Assembly: GCF_001676785.2 (NCBI RefSeq)
Contig: NZ_CP015910.2
Location: 2,542,001 to 2,606,000 of the forward strand
Reading direction: 5' to 3'
Length of the DNA: 64,000 nucleotides
Source: Brachyspira hyodysenteriae ATCC 27164
GTDB lineage: Bacteria > Spirochaetota > Brachyspiria > Brachyspirales > Brachyspiraceae
Below the pieces are notes generated by a model. That model saw nothing but the letters and a program-made list of their open reading frames with translations. It searched no databases and was not told the DNA's origin. Positions 36,419 through 61,289 of this stretch are shown here, in pieces; positions within the stretch are counted from its first letter, which is position 1; each line of letters opens with the position of its first letter. Both the position numbers and the translations under genes were made by a program.

Positions 36419-37501
36419 TTATCTAGGTTTATTAGTAAGTCTATCCATAGGGTTAATAATATCAGTAACACGAACACCGAAGTTTTCATCTATTACTACA
36501 ACCTCCCCTTTAGCTATTAACTTACCATTAACAAGCAAATCTACAGGCTCACCAGCTAACTTTTGAAGCTCTATAATAGAACCTTCACCAAGTCCTAATA
36601 TATCTCTAATAGTCATAGTAGCTCTTCCAAGCTCTACAGTCATATTCATGGTTACATCCATTAATAGACCGATATTTCCTGTTCCTTGTACATCAGAAGC
36701 AGGCATTAGAGAGTTAAACTCAGCATGCTGTACACCCAATTGAGGACCTGAATCAAAGGCTTGATTATCTACAAGTCCTGCCATAGAATTATTAGCAGAA
36801 GCTCCGGCATTTGCAGTATTTCCTCCAGCAGCAGGTGCAGCAGCATTATTAGATGCAGAACCTATAAGGCTTTGTAATAATGGAAGCTCCAAAGCAAATA
36901 CATAAGGAGCATTTTCTACTTCACCTTCAATAGAAAGAGAACCGCTTACTATAGCTAAAGGACCTGGTATATTAATACTGAAAGCATCCTCTAATATAGA
37001 AGTCTCTATAGGAGAGTTAGTAAAACTTCCTCCAAACCTTGAAGATAAAGCACTGTCAGAAACTCCTACCATTTGAGAGAAAGCTTCTTTTAATACTTGT
37101 GATACCATATCATTCAAAGCTGCTTCTTTCTGCCCCATCATAAGAGAAGCAACTACTAAAGCCTCATTTTCTCCCATGAAGTAATAAACATTTCCATTGA
37201 TAGAACCAGTATATCCTACTTTAGCCTCTACCATTTTGCCGGAAAGCATTTGATGCAAATTATTTACATCTCCGACTGTAGTTGTAATATTAGTGATAGA
37301 TACGGTTTTTGTAGAAATAGATGATAATGAGAAAGCCTGATTCTCAGCTATCATTTTTGCAGCTTCATTAAATAGCTGTTTATCTACATTTCCGCCTCCG
37401 TTACTTGATGCTTTAGGAGCAGTGTCTCCTCCAAAAGCTTCATCGGCACCTTTTAACAAAGCTTCTATTTCGTCTTGAGATAATGCACCGTCACTCATCA
37501 T
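36419..37501 (-). CDS. fliY: Flagellar motor switch protein FliY (FliN with CheC-like domain)
   Basis: A 360-residue switch protein: an N-terminal FliM-like peptide (LSQDEIEALLKG, a CheY-binding motif), a CheC-type phosphatase-like domain in the middle (MVSQVLKEAFSQMVGVSD region), an Ala/Asn-rich linker (about residues 222-245) and a C-terminal SpoA/FliN domain. It is part of the C-ring controlling rotation direction. Two ATGs lie in tandem after an AGGAGG region, and the gene is 4 nt after fliM. A terminator ends the operon here, so the export genes usually found next are elsewhere. Confidence 0.92.
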   Translation of the reverse strand: MMSDGALSQDEIEALLKGADEAFGGDTAPKASSNGGGNVDKQLFNEAAKMIAENQAFSLSSISTKTVSITNITTTVGDVNNLHQMLSGKMVEAKVGYTGSINGNVYYFMGENEALVVASLMMGQKEAALNDMVSQVLKEAFSQMVGVSDSALSSRFGGSFTNSPIETSILEDAFSINIPGPLAIVSGSLSIEGEVENAPYVFALELPLLQSLIGSASNNAAAPAAGGNTANAGASANNSMAGLVDNQAFDSGPQLGVQHAEFNSLMPASDVQGTGNIGLLMDVTMNMTVELGRATMTIRDILGLGEGSIIELQKLAGEPVDLLVNGKLIAKGEVVVIDENFGVRVTDIINPMDRLTNKPR

Positions 37502-37505
37502 AACC

Positions 37506-38537
37506 TTAATCCTCCTCTTTTAATAAATCGTCTTCGGTTATATCAGCCTCTCCATCCATAACACCTGTAAGCTGTACAGCCATTCTGCTGCCTGATATAC
37601 CAGGACGACATAAGAATTTCTTTCTGTTTCCTATCTTGAATATGACAGGATCTGTAATCTTAGTATCTGTAAACTTAACAACATCACCTTTCTGAAGATT
37701 GAGAATGTCTGATAGCGGTAATTGCATAGATCCAAGTTCCGCCGAAGTTTCAACAAATATATTTTGTAATTTTTCTTTAATAATTTTTAAATTCTCGCTA
37801 GTGCTTCCTCTTCTAATAGATGCATACCAATATTGAGCTGAGAACTTAGATAATATAGGCTCAATAGTAATATATGGTATACAAAAGTTCATCATACCTT
37901 CAACATCAGCTACTTTAGTTTCCAAAGTAATTAAAACAACCATGTCATTAGGACTAACCATCTGAGCAAACTGCGGGTTAGTTTCTATAGAACCCAAACG
38001 AGGTCTTAAATCTATTACCTGTGACCAAGCCTCTCTTAAGTTACCTAGTATTCTTACTATAATACCTTCCATAACGGATAACTCAATATCTGTAAGCTCT
38101 CTGTTTAAGTTCTTAGGACTTTCACCGGGTCCGCCAAACAATCTATCAATAATAGTAAATGTGATAGATGGGTCAATCTCTAATATGGAGCTTCCTTTCA
38201 AAGGATCCATACTTACAATAGCCAAAGTAGAAGGATTGCTGACACTTCTTATAAACTCTTCATAAGTAAGCTGATCTACACTTGCTACGTGAATACCTAC
38301 TAAAGTTCTTAACTGTGCAGATAATGAAGTTGTGGTAACACGAGCAAAGTTTTCATGCATCATCTGAAGCGTTCTAATTTGGTCTTTTGAAAACTTATCG
38401 GGACGTTTAAAGTCGTATATCTTTATCTTTCTATGCTCTACTTCTACACGTTTAGTATCAATATTATCTAAACTTTCACCAGATGATATAGCACTTAATA
38501 ACGCATCTATTTCGCTTTGTGACAATACTTCTGTCAT
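37506..38537 (-). CDS. fliM: Flagellar motor switch protein FliM
   Basis: FliM, 343 residues, is the CheY-P-binding component of the flagellar C-ring. The N-terminal CheY-binding peptide (VLSQSEIDALLSAI) is followed by the middle CheC-like domain (IYDFKRPDKFSKDQ; GGPGESPKNLNREL) and the C-terminal SpoA domain. Length and motifs are normal. AAGGA precedes the ATG. It lies between fliL (46 nt upstream) and fliY. Confidence 0.95.
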   Translation of the reverse strand: MTEVLSQSEIDALLSAISSGESLDNIDTKRVEVEHRKIKIYDFKRPDKFSKDQIRTLQMMHENFARVTTTSLSAQLRTLVGIHVASVDQLTYEEFIRSVSNPSTLAIVSMDPLKGSSILEIDPSITFTIIDRLFGGPGESPKNLNRELTDIELSVMEGIIVRILGNLREAWSQVIDLRPRLGSIETNPQFAQMVSPNDMVVLITLETKVADVEGMMNFCIPYITIEPILSKFSAQYWYASIRRGSTSENLKIIKEKLQNIFVETSAELGSMQLPLSDILNLQKGDVVKFTDTKITDPVIFKIGNRKKFLCRPGISGSRMAVQLTGVMDGEADITEDDLLKEED

Positions 38538-55363: not shown

Positions 55364-55392
55364 TTGACAAATAATTAAAAAGAATTTATATT
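55364..55392 (+). promoter_or_regulatory. Promoter of the predicted structured RNA
   Basis: TTGACA (55364-55369), 17-bp spacer, TATATT (55387-55392): eleven of twelve consensus bases. Predicted start near 55399, exactly where the GC-rich paired RNA begins. Confidence 0.65.
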
Positions 55393-55398
55393 GTATTC

Positions 55399-55599
55399 AA
55401 CTCTGCTGTTCTCGTTAAACGATAGTACATTCTTGCGCCAGTATAAATTAATGCATTAGGGATCTGGAGCGAAGCATTAATGATAGGCTCGCCGTTATCG
55501 CGATACGGTTTTGAGAAATCAAGGTCATGTTTCTGAGGAACCCACCTGACAAGAAAAGTCAGGCGCATTTATGTCGTATACGGCTCAGCGGAGCTTTTT
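55399..55599 (+). ncRNA. Predicted structured non-coding RNA, about 200 nt
   Basis: By hand count 55401-55600 has 88 G+C (44%) in a genome near 27%. The 5' end CTCTGCTG (55401-55408) pairs with CAGCGGAG (55586-55593; one G-U), after which CTTTTT gives a terminator-like end. Inside, ACAT/ATGT (427-430 with 571-574) and TGCGCC/GGCGCA (434-439 with 562-567; offsets from 55000) stack across a 3x3 loop. Local hairpins are ATTAATGC/GCATTAAT (447-454 with 474-481), CCGT/ACGG (492-495 with 505-508), GTTTC/GGAAC (529-533 with 537-541) and CTGAC/GTCAG (546-550 with 558-562; its last base competes with the GGCGCA helix). A sigma70 promoter ends 6 bp upstream. I do not see tmRNA, RNase P or SRP signature sequences; 6S RNA is the nearest in size and paired ends. 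Confidence 0.65.
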
Positions 55600-55639
55600 A
55601 ATAACATATCAAATTAAATAAACATATCAAGAAAACATT

Positions 55640-55666
55640 TCAAGTAAAATTTGCTTTAGCCGATAA
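55640..55666 (+). promoter_or_regulatory. Candidate sigma28 promoter of the sensor pair
   Basis: TCAAGTAA (55640-55647), 11-nt spacer, GCCGATAA (55659-55666). The -10 is a perfect match to the FliA consensus and the -35 matches 5/8, at the correct spacing, 58 bp before the ATG at 55725. Confidence 0.45.
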
Positions 55667-55724: not shown

Positions 55725-57827
55725 ATGAATGAAAATAAAAAGCAGAAAATAATGAAAACAGTTTTAAGTTTAATGATATCTTTTCTTATCATTTTTATAG
55801 TTGCTATGTTCGCACGTGCTGCAAGTAATACTGTACTTCCAGAAAACAATGGTATAGCGGTATTTATCAATGACTATTTAGATATGATGATGCAAAGAGT
55901 AGATAAAATAGCAGTAAAAATGAAAATAAAAAGAAATAGTGTATCTGAGTACCAAGTTAATTTAATAACTCAATCAATATCCGATTATGTAGGATATAGT
56001 ATGTATCAAACATCAGATTCACTAAAAGATTTTAATCCTAATAATACACCTTCAAAAGCTCAAATAGATAAATACAAAAATAATTATTATAAAATGACTG
56101 TTGAAAATCCATATTTGAGAGGAATGACTGTTTTCAGCACAGAAGGAAAAATGCTTCTTAATTTATATTTATCAAGAAATAAATCTTGGCCTTTAGAACT
56201 TCAGGACAATTTAATAAATGAAATTAAAAATAAAGGATCATTAGTATTAAATGCTACAAATGAAAATGCATTTTATATAATGGAATATATAAAAAATCCT
56301 TATGGAGAAATAATCGTTACTACTAGAAATGATTATGCTTATGTATCTGATATAGCTATGTATTATCAAGTAGCTGACAAAAGACTTTATGTAAGCGATG
56401 CAAGAAACTCTGTTTACAATGTAAGAGAAGCTGTAGGAGATAACAATATAGAAAAAGTTTCATCTGTTATAAATAGATATGCATACTATAAAAAACAGCC
56501 TAGTTTCATGGTTAATGATTCTCTTTCTGTTTCTATGATAGGAAAAGAATATCCTAACTACTTTGAACTTATAGTACTTGCTATAACAGCATTACTCATA
56601 CTTGTTTGTCAGTTATTTATCAAAGCGGTAGTATATTTCTTTAAATACATTATGCAGATAAAAAGCAATAAAGATTATGTTGAAAGCATAAGAGGAAATG
56701 ATGAGCTTATAAATAACAATATAGTTAACTCACAATTACCTAAATCAAATGCTATTGAAGAAATGCCTCCTATGATTCAAAAAGTACATTACAAAGTACC
56801 TGATGAATATCTAAAAGAAAATAATAATTCAAAAGATGAGGATAAATTCAACATAGGAAAAGATATATTAAATATAGTATCTAATATAAAAGATGAAATA
56901 AATGCATGCAAAAATAAATTTACTGTTTCAAAAGAGGACTTAGAAGATAAAAAAGAAAATTCAGAAAATCAATTAGAAGAAAGTACAACAGAAGAAGAAA
57001 CTATAGAAGAAATAAACGAAATAAATACTGAAATAGATATAGAAACTGCATTTGCTAATATAAAAAAGGATTTACAAGAAGAATATGATAGAGCTATAGA
57101 AGAGAATTTCTTAGAAGATAGTCTTTATGATATGAGCAGTGAAGAAGAAGTTTATGAAGACATTAATATATCAGAAAATGATGATATGTCTATAAACGAA
57201 TACGAAATTAAAGAAGAAAAAGAAGAAGAAAATAATGATACTGTTATAAATGATTATGAGATAAAAGAAGAGCAATATGCTGAAAATAATGATGATGATA
57301 AAGAATTCATGTCTATATCTAATGAAGAATTAAATATTAAATCATCAGATTCAGATATTGACAATAATTTTATAGCTGAAAGTTTATCTTTAGATGAAAA
57401 TATATTAAAAAATAATGTATTAAATAATTCTGAAGAGAAAGAAGAAGAAAATGCTTACAAAATCGATAATGAATTTAATAAAAAAATAATAAAAAATGAT
57501 TTATTATCAAGCTATAAAGAAAAAGAAGAAGAAAAAAATAAAGAATATGTAAGAAATTTATTCAATAGTAAGAAAACAGAGAACCATATAAATAATGATT
57601 CTCATGATATTAGTATGGATATATTAAATTCATATAATAAAGCTATCGATAATATAAAAAATAAAAGCGAAAAAGAAGAGGATTCTAAAGAAGATGTAAA
57701 AGCATCTAACTTGGATAATGAGTCTAATTCAAGAACAGATGATGTGTTTGCCGCTTTCGATAAAATGTTATCCTCTATAATAAGCAAAGCAGAGGAAGAT
57801 GCGAGAAAAAGCATAACAAAAAAATAA
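55725..57827 (+). CDS. Membrane sensor-like protein with acidic cytoplasmic tail
   Basis: A 700-residue protein: N-terminal membrane segment (about 11-31), extracytoplasmic domain of about 245 residues with Cache-like features, second membrane segment (about 281-303), and a 390-residue cytoplasmic tail rich in Glu, Asp, Asn and Lys, without clear tandem repeats and ending in a basic KSITKK. There is no kinase, MCP or other known output domain. AAAGG precedes the ATG. It shares its layout with the next gene, 21 nt downstream, so the two probably work together. A FliA-like promoter lies upstream. Confidence 0.6.
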   Translation: MNENKKQKIMKTVLSLMISFLIIFIVAMFARAASNTVLPENNGIAVFINDYLDMMMQRVDKIAVKMKIKRNSVSEYQVNLITQSISDYVGYSMYQTSDSLKDFNPNNTPSKAQIDKYKNNYYKMTVENPYLRGMTVFSTEGKMLLNLYLSRNKSWPLELQDNLINEIKNKGSLVLNATNENAFYIMEYIKNPYGEIIVTTRNDYAYVSDIAMYYQVADKRLYVSDARNSVYNVREAVGDNNIEKVSSVINRYAYYKKQPSFMVNDSLSVSMIGKEYPNYFELIVLAITALLILVCQLFIKAVVYFFKYIMQIKSNKDYVESIRGNDELINNNIVNSQLPKSNAIEEMPPMIQKVHYKVPDEYLKENNNSKDEDKFNIGKDILNIVSNIKDEINACKNKFTVSKEDLEDKKENSENQLEESTTEEETIEEINEINTEIDIETAFANIKKDLQEEYDRAIEENFLEDSLYDMSSEEEVYEDINISENDDMSINEYEIKEEKEEENNDTVINDYEIKEEQYAENNDDDKEFMSISNEELNIKSSDSDIDNNFIAESLSLDENILKNNVLNNSEEKEEENAYKIDNEFNKKIIKNDLLSSYKEKEEEKNKEYVRNLFNSKKTENHINNDSHDISMDILNSYNKAIDNIKNKSEKEEDSKEDVKASNLDNESNSRTDDVFAAFDKMLSSIISKAEEDARKSITKK

Positions 57828-57848: not shown

Positions 57849-60800
57849 ATGTCTGACAAAAATAAGATATCTATCTTTGTGTATGTATCTATACTTATAA
57901 ATTTGATAGTTCTTGCTTTATTTATTACGTTTGTATTCGGACTGAAAAAAGATGCTTTTGATGTTGATACAAAGAAACTTGATAGAAATGCTTTGATATG
58001 TCAGAATAGTATAGTAAATTTGGTGAAAGATTATGATGAAAGACTTAACAAAATAGTTGATAGCTATCCTTTTATTAATCTTTTACAGCAGGTTATATTA
58101 AATGGAATAGATACTGCAGAAAGAGATAGAATTATATCAATATTCAGAAGCGGTAATTATCCTTTTGATACAGTAGCATTATACTTAGCAGATGGAAAAT
58201 CAGTATTTTCTTCTCCTGTAAAAACTAAACCTGTAGATTTAGAAAGCTACAAAAATTCTAAAGCTGTGGCATTTTTTGATAAAGATTATGACGGCGTATA
58301 TTTTGTTAAGCCAATAAAAAATGACAGAGGAATAGAAGTAGGATATATAGTAGCAAGCGTATTTAAGAAAATATTTGAAAATACATCATATAATTTAAAC
58401 TTCGTAGTACTTTCTAATGGTGTTGTCTATTATAACCCTTCTATAGATATTAACAGCATATCAATAGACAGTTTAACTCAATATATGAATAAAGATATAG
58501 GAAGTTCTGGTACTATAGATGCTGATAATAATACATTTGCTTTTTATTCAGGTAAAGTTAAAGATATAGATAATTTTAGTATAGGTATATTAGAACTTAA
58601 TGTACCTATAGTTCAAAAGTATTTAAAATATATAATATTAGCACTTTTATCTTTATCTTTTATATTCTTGCTTACAACTTCTCTAGTAGAAAGATTCAAA
58701 CCTGCTGCTAATAATAATATAACAGAAGAATCTGAAGAAGATGATATATATGATGAAAGCGAACCTCCTATAAATAATTATGATAATGCTAATATTGTAA
58801 ATGATGAAGAGTTTAATATTGATGATTATGATAATGATATAGAAGGCTTAGATGATGAAAGTATTAAATATCTAAATAAAGTAGATAAAATAACAAAAAA
58901 TAGTAAACTTGATCTTCCTAATATAGATGAAATAGAAGATATAAAAGTTGAAGATAATGATACAAGATTGAATGATGTAATGGATTATGAAGATAATGAT
59001 GATGAAATAATCAAATTAGATGATGTACTAGAAGACGGCGGAGAAACAATTCAAGATGATAATGATGAAGATGAAGAAATAAAAATAGAAGATTTATCAT
59101 CTTTAGATAAAGTATTAGAAAATGAAGATAATGATGAAGATGAGAGTATTAAATTAGAAAATATAGAAAATTTGGATGATGTGCTAGATGAACAGCAAGA
59201 TGAATTAGAAGATGTTCCTAATATAGACGATGTACTTGATGAACAGAAAGATGAATTAGAAGATATACCTAGTTTGGACGATATAGTTGATGAAGATAAT
59301 GAAGAAAATAATACAGAGGATGTACCTAGTTTAGACGATGTACTCAATGATGATAATACAGAAGATGTTCCTAATTTAGATGATGTACTAGATGAACAAG
59401 AAGATGAATTAGAAGATGTTCCTAATTTAGACGATGTACTCGATGAAGAAGAGAAAGAAAATAATACAGAAGACAATAGTAATGAAAGTATGCCTGAAAT
59501 GAAAGAGTATTCTGATGAGGAGCTTTTAGATTCTAATCTTTTATTGGATGATGATGAAGACAATAATATAGATGATACTGTAGGCGATTTGAACGATATA
59601 CCTGATCTACATGATGAAATAAAAGAACCTGAAGAAGATAAAGAAGATAATAAAGACATGCTTGAAATGAAAGAGTATTCTGATGAGGAGCTTTTAGATT
59701 CTAATCATTTATTGGACGATGATGAAGATAATAACGAAGAAGACAATAATATAGATGATACTGTAGGTGATTTAGATGATATACCTGATTTGGATGATGT
59801 AATAGATAATATTACAGAAGAGAATGATAATACAGAAAATAGTAATGAAGAAAATGAAGAATCTGATGAAAATATTCCTGAAATGAAAGAGTATTCTGAT
59901 GAGGAGCTTTTAGATTCTAATCATTTATTGGACGATGATGAAGATAATAACGAAGAAGACAATAATATAGATGATACTGTAGGCGATTTAGATGATATAC
60001 CTGATTTAGACGATGTAATAGACGATATTACAGAAGAAAATGATAATACAGAAAATAGTAATGAAGAAAATGAAGAATCTGATGAAAATATTCCTGAAAT
60101 GAAAGAGTATTCTGATGAAGAGCTTTTAGATTCTAATCATTTATTAGACGATGATGAAGATAATAACGAAGAAGACAATAATATAGATGATACTGTAGGC
60201 GATTTGGATGATATACCTGATTTAGACGATGTAATAGACGATATTACAGAAGAAAATGATAATACAGAAAATAGTAATGAAGAAAATGAAGAATCTGATG
60301 AAAACATGCCTGAAATGAGAGAGTATTCTGATGAAGAGCTTTTGGATTCTGATCATTTAGTAGATGATGATAATGAAGAAGATTTAAATGATATACCTGA
60401 TACAAACGATGAAGTTAAAGAATCTGAAGAAGCTGATAATGAAGAGCTAGAAGAAACTATTGATGATAATAATAACTCATCAGATAATGATATTATAAAA
60501 GGAATTGATGATATTATAGATGATAATGATGACAATAAAGAGGGGGATATTTTGATAAGTCATGGATCTATTTTAGAAGATGAAATAGTAAAAAAAGAAG
60601 AGGAATACTTTTCTTCAAGCGATGCTTTCAATTTTTCGCTTAACAGAGATTTTTTGCTAGGAGATTATGATGATGAAGAAAATGACAGCAATAATAATGG
60701 AAGCTCTAATATATCACCTAATTTCAATGAAGAATATGATGACGGAGAAGTAATTAAACCTGCAAGTGAAAAAGATAGTTTCGATACAGAAGATTTAATA

Positions 60801-61289
60801 GATAAAGATTTATATGACCCTGAAGAAGTTCCTAAAGTTCCAGATGACTTTTATAGAGAAGCAGAAGAAAAAGTAAAAGAAAATATGACTTCTAATTGGA
60901 AGAAAGTTTTAAAAGCTCTTAGAGGTAAAAAATTTGTCAATAAAAATATGAGCGAAATGCTAGAATGGGTAAAAGAACAATCTGGACTTGATATAATACA
61001 TGCAGCTATGCTTACAAGACAAGATAATGGAAGTTATGATATAGCAGAATCTCAAAATATTTCTGATAATACAAAAAATAAATTGAATATTAGCGAGAAT
61101 GAAGCTTTATTCAAAAAGATTCTGTCTCATAAAAAAACATTATATGTATCTGATCCATTCGCTTCAGATTCTATAAAAAGTAAATTTGATTCTGAAGATA
61201 GAAAAGATATTTCCCATATGATATTTGTACCAATAGAAAATGATGAAGGAGGATTAAAATCATTTTTTATAGGACTTTCATCTAACTAG
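57849..61289 (+). CDS. Membrane sensor-like protein with acidic repeats and GAF-like domain
   Basis: A 1146-residue protein: membrane segment (about 9-32), extracytoplasmic Cache-like sensor (to about 258), second membrane segment (about 261-281), a very acidic region (290-1000) and a C-terminal globular domain (1001-1146) that looks like GAF (SGLDIIHAAMLTRQDNGSYD, then HMIFVPIENDEGG). The acidic region has short NLDDVLDEQ-type units and then five longer units with EMKEYSDEELLDSNH, a motif also repeated in the giant protein at 39989. No catalytic domain seen. AGAGGTG precedes the ATG, 21 nt after the upstream partner. Function unknown. Confidence 0.65.
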   Translation: MSDKNKISIFVYVSILINLIVLALFITFVFGLKKDAFDVDTKKLDRNALICQNSIVNLVKDYDERLNKIVDSYPFINLLQQVILNGIDTAERDRIISIFRSGNYPFDTVALYLADGKSVFSSPVKTKPVDLESYKNSKAVAFFDKDYDGVYFVKPIKNDRGIEVGYIVASVFKKIFENTSYNLNFVVLSNGVVYYNPSIDINSISIDSLTQYMNKDIGSSGTIDADNNTFAFYSGKVKDIDNFSIGILELNVPIVQKYLKYIILALLSLSFIFLLTTSLVERFKPAANNNITEESEEDDIYDESEPPINNYDNANIVNDEEFNIDDYDNDIEGLDDESIKYLNKVDKITKNSKLDLPNIDEIEDIKVEDNDTRLNDVMDYEDNDDEIIKLDDVLEDGGETIQDDNDEDEEIKIEDLSSLDKVLENEDNDEDESIKLENIENLDDVLDEQQDELEDVPNIDDVLDEQKDELEDIPSLDDIVDEDNEENNTEDVPSLDDVLNDDNTEDVPNLDDVLDEQEDELEDVPNLDDVLDEEEKENNTEDNSNESMPEMKEYSDEELLDSNLLLDDDEDNNIDDTVGDLNDIPDLHDEIKEPEEDKEDNKDMLEMKEYSDEELLDSNHLLDDDEDNNEEDNNIDDTVGDLDDIPDLDDVIDNITEENDNTENSNEENEESDENIPEMKEYSDEELLDSNHLLDDDEDNNEEDNNIDDTVGDLDDIPDLDDVIDDITEENDNTENSNEENEESDENIPEMKEYSDEELLDSNHLLDDDEDNNEEDNNIDDTVGDLDDIPDLDDVIDDITEENDNTENSNEENEESDENMPEMREYSDEELLDSDHLVDDDNEEDLNDIPDTNDEVKESEEADNEELEETIDDNNNSSDNDIIKGIDDIIDDNDDNKEGDILISHGSILEDEIVKKEEEYFSSSDAFNFSLNRDFLLGDYDDEENDSNNNGSSNISPNFNEEYDDGEVIKPASEKDSFDTEDLIDKDLYDPEEVPKVPDDFYREAEEKVKENMTSNWKKVLKALRGKKFVNKNMSEMLEWVKEQSGLDIIHAAMLTRQDNGSYDIAESQNISDNTKNKLNISENEALFKKILSHKKTLYVSDPFASDSIKSKFDSEDRKDISHMIFVPIENDEGGLKSFFIGLSSN
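59150..60390 (+). repeat. Acidic repeats in the sensor-like gene
   Basis: Short units encoding (N/S)(L/I)DDV(L/V)DE occupy roughly 59150-59460. Five longer units with EMKEYSDEELLDSN (the last EMREYSDEELLDSD) have anchors 59496, 59664, 59880, 60096 and 60312; the last three intervals are exactly 216 bp (72 codons) with near-identical DNA. Confidence 0.85.

Follow-up and report, generated by a model that had tools for sequence, protein, structure and literature searches.

A divergent 6S RNA (ssrS) gene in Brachyspira hyodysenteriae

Organization of the locus

The 64,000-nt stretch of the Brachyspira hyodysenteriae ATCC 27164 genome that was analysed (hereafter the window) contains a gene for a structured RNA of about 200 nt on its plus strand (Table 1). 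In most species this RNA sits between a HAD-family hydrolase and the ORF at 55725-57827. The gene is preceded by a predicted promoter matching the consensus at 11 of 12 positions, its two ends can pair with each other, and the downstream arm is followed directly by a T-run; all three features had been pointed out in the original prediction and lie where it placed them, and the size of the RNA and its promoter-defined 5' end had likewise been read correctly. The -35 hexamer TTGACA is the same in every one of the 25 orthologues, and the -10 element reads TATATT, TATAGT or close to these. The T-run, weak in orthologues such as L017 and L018, is a candidate intrinsic terminator that probably marks the 3' end.

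Table 1. Coordinates of the RNA gene and its elements in the window
Feature	Position	Strand	Remarks
Sigma70-type promoter (predicted)	55364..55392	+	TTGACA 55364-55369, 17-nt spacer, TATATT 55387-55392
6S RNA (ssrS) gene, ~200 nt	55399..55598	+	5' end inferred from promoter, 3' end from model and T-run
Closing stem P1, arms CTCTGCTG / CAGCGGAG	55401..55408 / 55586..55593	+	2 pairs with two-sided changes, 96.6% of cells paired
Upper closing stem CGT / ACG	55413..55415 / 55580-55582	+	
Extra helix ACGAT / GTCGT	55419..55423 / 55573-55577	+	Two pairs with two-sided changes
Helix P2 (downstream duplex) TGCGCC / GGCGCA	55434..55439 / 55562..55567	+	Two pairs with two-sided changes, 96.2% of cells paired
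Central bubble, 5' strand (open-promoter mimic)	55440..55458	+	
Apical arm base GGG / CCC	55459..55461 / 55541-55543	+	Aligned to GGG/CCC of the Rfam consensus
Apical stem GAAGCAT / ATGTTTC	55471..55477 / 55527-55533	+	4 pairs with two-sided changes, 98.7% of cells paired
Conserved apical core, specific to the family, TGATAGGCTCGCC...GGTTTTGAGAAATCAAGGTC	55481..55526	+	Stems 55481-55484/55518-55521 and 55491-55495/55505-55509
3'-central-bubble hairpin CCTGAC-(7)-GTCAGG	55545..55563	+	Arms 55545-55550/55558-55563; 94.7% of cells paired, a two-sided change
CTTTTT after closing stem, probable 3' end	55594..55599	+	C, then TTTTT at 55595-55599

The G+C content over 55397-55598 is 0.44, compared with 0.273 for the whole window, which bears out the described G+C-rich island in DNA of about 27% G+C. 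Elevated G+C in AT-rich genomes can mark real RNA genes, yet two other 202-bp stretches of the window, within 36631-36928 and 37380-37620, equal this value, and a few further ones come within 2 points of it. Promoter-like sites in AT-rich DNA numbered 12 against 4.9 expected, and the single-sequence fold energy of the island is unremarkable and uninformative (z = -1.45). By themselves, promoter, paired ends, T-run and G+C are suggestive only, and modestly so. The locus stands above chance because a 6S covariance model matches it end to end, because it is conserved in every genome of the genus, and because its helices covary.

An open frame of 60 amino acids on the minus strand (ORF 55386-55568) could be taken in the window sequence for a small antisense protein gene. 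Among the orthologues no antisense frame is conserved: the longest stop-free frame falls to 27-39 codons in seven of them (L003, L014, L018, L024-L026 and G074), indels are not multiples of three, and the ORF has no Pfam match. A protein gene is thus vanishingly unlikely here, and this candidate was rejected since its frame is broken in several orthologues.

Identity as a 6S RNA

6S RNA is a well-known bacterial RNA that imitates an open promoter and thereby shuts down RNA polymerase. The Rfam covariance search, which the original prediction had proposed with 6S as the first family to try, aligned the full 187 positions of RF00013 (6S RNA) to 55397-55598 of the plus strand; the cmscan of the surroundings gave 31.3 bits at E = 0.0012. 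RF00013 is the sole credible Rfam match in these surroundings and the only family at E <= 1 at the locus, and the whole 3.07-Mb genome contains only one RF00013 match (E = 1.7e-4). The Rfam consensus fits the 5' half of helix P2 badly, and the score is 15 bits short of the curated gathering cut-off of 46.4 bits.

This shortfall is attributable to sequence divergence, since scores rise through the relatives. Within the genus, 11 of 14 orthologues tested have an RF00013 match of 27.5-42.4 bits, in each case over the full length; the divergent members L024-L026 have no RF00013 match at E <= 1, and every genus member tested scores under the cut-off. Two genomes of the sister genus score 48.6 bits (G066, E = 4.4e-7) and 45.7 bits, and a member of another family of the same order (G026) scores 69 bits. 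At the DNA level, the RNA of G066 is 75% identical to that of the window over 171 nt (E = 1.6e-26), and the RNA of G074, also of the sister genus, is 72% identical over 202 nt (E = 3.4e-22). The cut-off is a detection threshold and not a biological criterion, as homologous relatives in the sister genus and the order reach 48.6 and 69 bits.

The reciprocal search used a genus model, R1, a covariance model of 196 positions built from 22 Brachyspiraceae RNAs. R1 aligns to 55399-55597 and finds this single place in its own genome at E <= 10. It recovers 28 of 30 cut-off-passing 6S loci from other spirochaete families, all of which had been left out of its training, over all 196 positions in each case (E from 3.5e-11 to 0.0066). 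G026, the relative from the same order, is recovered too (E = 1.2e-14). R1 missed two loci of curated level (L048, L049) as well as two Rfam matches of 30.5 and 47.7 bits (L066 and L067).

The original prediction had left the choice between a divergent 6S RNA and a new RNA. A new class of structured RNA, resembling 6S in size and paired ends only, would account for scores that stay under the Rfam cut-off throughout the genus, for a helix outside the Rfam consensus fold (55419-55423/55573-55577) and for the family-specific apical core. However, all 187 positions of the 6S model are aligned, sequence-similar relatives in the sister genus and the order exceed the cut-off, R1 recovers known-level 6S loci end to end, and the genome has no other 6S RNA. 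A new class has therefore only a very slight chance of being correct, the cut-off-passing relatives and the reciprocal model refuting it to a practical degree. The 6S half of the prediction stands on the direct end-to-end Rfam alignment, the intermediates above the cut-off and the reciprocal model search, and the new-RNA half falls. The RNA is a divergent new member of the known 6S family, easily missed, and no new kind of RNA. We conclude with high confidence that the locus is the ssrS gene of Brachyspira, whose product is a divergent 6S RNA some 200 nt long; its mode of action is most likely that of other 6S RNAs.

Distribution among relatives

One copy per genome was found with R1 in 26 of 26 genus genomes searched. 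Across the order, 30 genomes out of 31 have one R1 place each, the 26 of the genus among them; in one genome (G148) the match is partial and lies at a contig end. G025, which belongs to this order and is 97% complete, has no R1 match and is absent among the Rfam 6S matches, which may reflect loss of the gene, too much divergence or an assembly gap. A plain DNA similarity search in 16 genomes gave no match beyond the genus; covariance models were needed to reach farther. Cut-off-passing 6S RNAs are present in 83 of 296 genomes of the phylum.

A search of the open-access literature yielded no paper that pairs 6S RNA with Brachyspira, although earlier surveys may have listed it. Pipelines that apply the Rfam cut-off would leave the 6S RNA unannotated in the Brachyspira members tested, and the tested alignment could extend the Rfam 6S seed. 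Another spirochaete 6S RNA, Bb6S of Borrelia burgdorferi, has been seen as a transcript and is raised by the stringent response (PMC6041397); it belongs to a different spirochaete order and is likened to the Brachyspira RNA by description.

Fold and covariation

The family alignment (A4) comprises 22 sequences aligned with MAFFT. L026 is locally misaligned at the P2 3' strand and was left so, which makes the pair counts conservative. Unguided, RNAalifold folds A4 into a 6S-like rod with 14 pairs showing two-sided changes. In the explicit 6S structure, 97.1% of cells are paired, and two-sided changes occur in 13 pairs and 40 cells, against shuffled means of 5.3 pairs and 8.5 cells; none of 500 shuffles reached either observed value. 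The alignment check for compensatory changes suggested at the outset thus came out in favour of a structured RNA. When the partner is slid by 1-3 columns, pairing falls to 32-46%; for cells paired, this control favours a structure derived from a single sequence, and the two-sided changes are not due to that.

Covarying pairs lie in the closing stem, in the extra helix next to the bubble, in P2 and in the apical stems. A pair flanking the upper closing stem (55411/55583) covaries as CG, UG, UA and GC. The closing stem, the large central bubble and the apical stem with internal loops are all present and supported by covariation with controls. The Brachyspira RNA shares with 6S RNA/SsrS (RF00013) its size, closing stem, central bubble and apical arm, a single gene with its own predicted promoter, the CCCACCU motif beside the 3'-bubble hairpin, and the end-to-end model alignment. 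It differs in the score, in the poorly matched P2 5' strand, in the extra helix near the bubble and in the family-specific apical core.

Predicted refolding and product RNA

The 3'-bubble hairpin and P2 overlap at GG 55562-55563 and are mutually exclusive. Compensatory changes occur separately in the two helices, and their competition is visible at the sequence level. The alternative state containing the hairpin has 96.9% of cells paired and 12 pairs with two-sided changes. When nucleotides 31-44 are held unpaired, P2 disappears from the fold predicted by thermodynamics and all 6 bp of the hairpin form. The constrained fold also contains AAUGC/GCAUU, between the distal 5' bubble and the P2 3' strand, a candidate for the central bubble collapse helix of B. 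subtilis type; judged by eye on A4, this pairing is missing from part of the members.

In E. coli and other gammaproteobacteria, synthesis of the product RNA (pRNA) unwinds P2 and permits a 9-bp 3'-bubble hairpin that is important for release (PMC8876501). The Brachyspira hairpin is predicted to use the P2 3' strand and so to exclude P2, the feature of E. coli-type refolding: CCUGAC/GUCAGG and P2 need the same two G's, and each of them covaries. Unlike the E. coli-type hairpin, it has 6 bp rather than 9 bp and overlaps P2 by only 2 nt. In these fold models it may partly form in the free RNA, which would place it nearer to B. subtilis 6S-1. The competing hairpin and P2 provide a covariation-supported case outside the proteobacteria.

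All 22 sequences of A4 carry U44 (55442). We take this nucleotide, the third beyond P2, to be the equivalent of the E. coli 6S pRNA start. By this analogy we infer a pRNA start at U44, with 5'-ACUGGCGCAAGAAU as the predicted product; the candidate pRNA 5' ends are ACUGGCGC for a start at 55442 and AUACUGGCGC for a start at 55444.

The behaviour of the 6S family suggests how the Brachyspira RNA would work. It would be transcribed from its own sigma70-type promoter and would fold as a long rod whose central bubble mimics an open promoter. It would then occupy the RNA polymerase holoenzyme carrying the housekeeping sigma factor, so that transcription is held down when nutrients are short, a growth-phase role like that of other 6S RNAs. 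On recovery, the polymerase would take the bubble as its template, begin near U44 and copy the P2 5' strand into a short pRNA, with nucleotides 31-44 as the expected template. The P2 3' strand would thereby be freed, the CCUGAC/GUCAGG hairpin would form, and the 6S RNA would be released.

A 6S RNA by descent could also have come to act by an altered mechanism, for example by binding core polymerase or by no longer templating pRNA. Such a shift has a parallel in Ms1 of actinobacteria, which has a 6S-like shape and binds RNA polymerase as 6S RNA does, but in the form of the core rather than the holoenzyme (PMC9130861); the Brachyspira locus, for its part, matches only RF00013 at E <= 1. The 6S function proposed here is predicted from the family, and the apical core is unusually conserved, both of which leave some room for such a change. 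Yet the RNA retains the bubble, P2, the 3'-bubble hairpin and the inferred start at U44, with separate covariation in P2 and in the hairpin. An altered mechanism is thus very unlikely, and operation as a conventional 6S RNA remains the preferred reading.

A conserved apical core

The apical core is near-invariant in 25 orthologues and in two sister-genus RNAs. Among 84,980 species genomes, its pattern is found only in Brachyspira and spirochaete metagenome-assembled genomes (MAGs); carriers include B. pilosicoli, B. hampsonii, B. innocens, B. alvinipulli, B. catarrhinii and related MAGs. In most 6S RNAs the apical arm is less conserved. The Brachyspira core may contact something lineage-specific. 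That a 6S RNA by descent has here gained a lineage-specific partner or polymerase contact through its apical core is nevertheless a rather improbable proposal; if true, 6S RNA would be regulated or released in Brachyspira unlike in other bacteria.

Neighbourhood and independence of the gene

The RNA lies 126 bp upstream of ORF 55725-57827 on the same strand, and the two are syntenic in 18 of 25 loci, an arrangement that a 5' leader or riboswitch of this ORF would also show. However, seven genus loci (L020-L026) and the sister genus keep the RNA while neither neighbour occurs in the flanks that were fetched, the flanks of L019 and L022 being shortened by contig ends. Moreover, a T-run ends the RNA, and the end-to-end match is to a family of trans-acting RNAs. 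A leader is therefore extremely unlikely. The invariant TTGACA, the conserved -10 element and retention across changed neighbourhoods point instead to an independent gene with a promoter of its own, and the evidence for 6S identity upholds the independent structured RNA gene that had been proposed.

The two large downstream ORFs (55725-57827 and 57849-61289, on the same strand) had been labelled a sensor pair; this label is without domain support, neither ORF having a Pfam match at E <= 0.01. The DNA separating the 6S gene from ORF 55725-57827 includes a sigma28-like element (TCAAGTAA-N11-GCCGATAA, window 55640-55666), which is conserved together with this ORF in most orthologues. Genome-wide, the motif has 3 matches against 1 for the control and is too rare to confirm. 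ORF 57849-61289 carries long acidic repeats.
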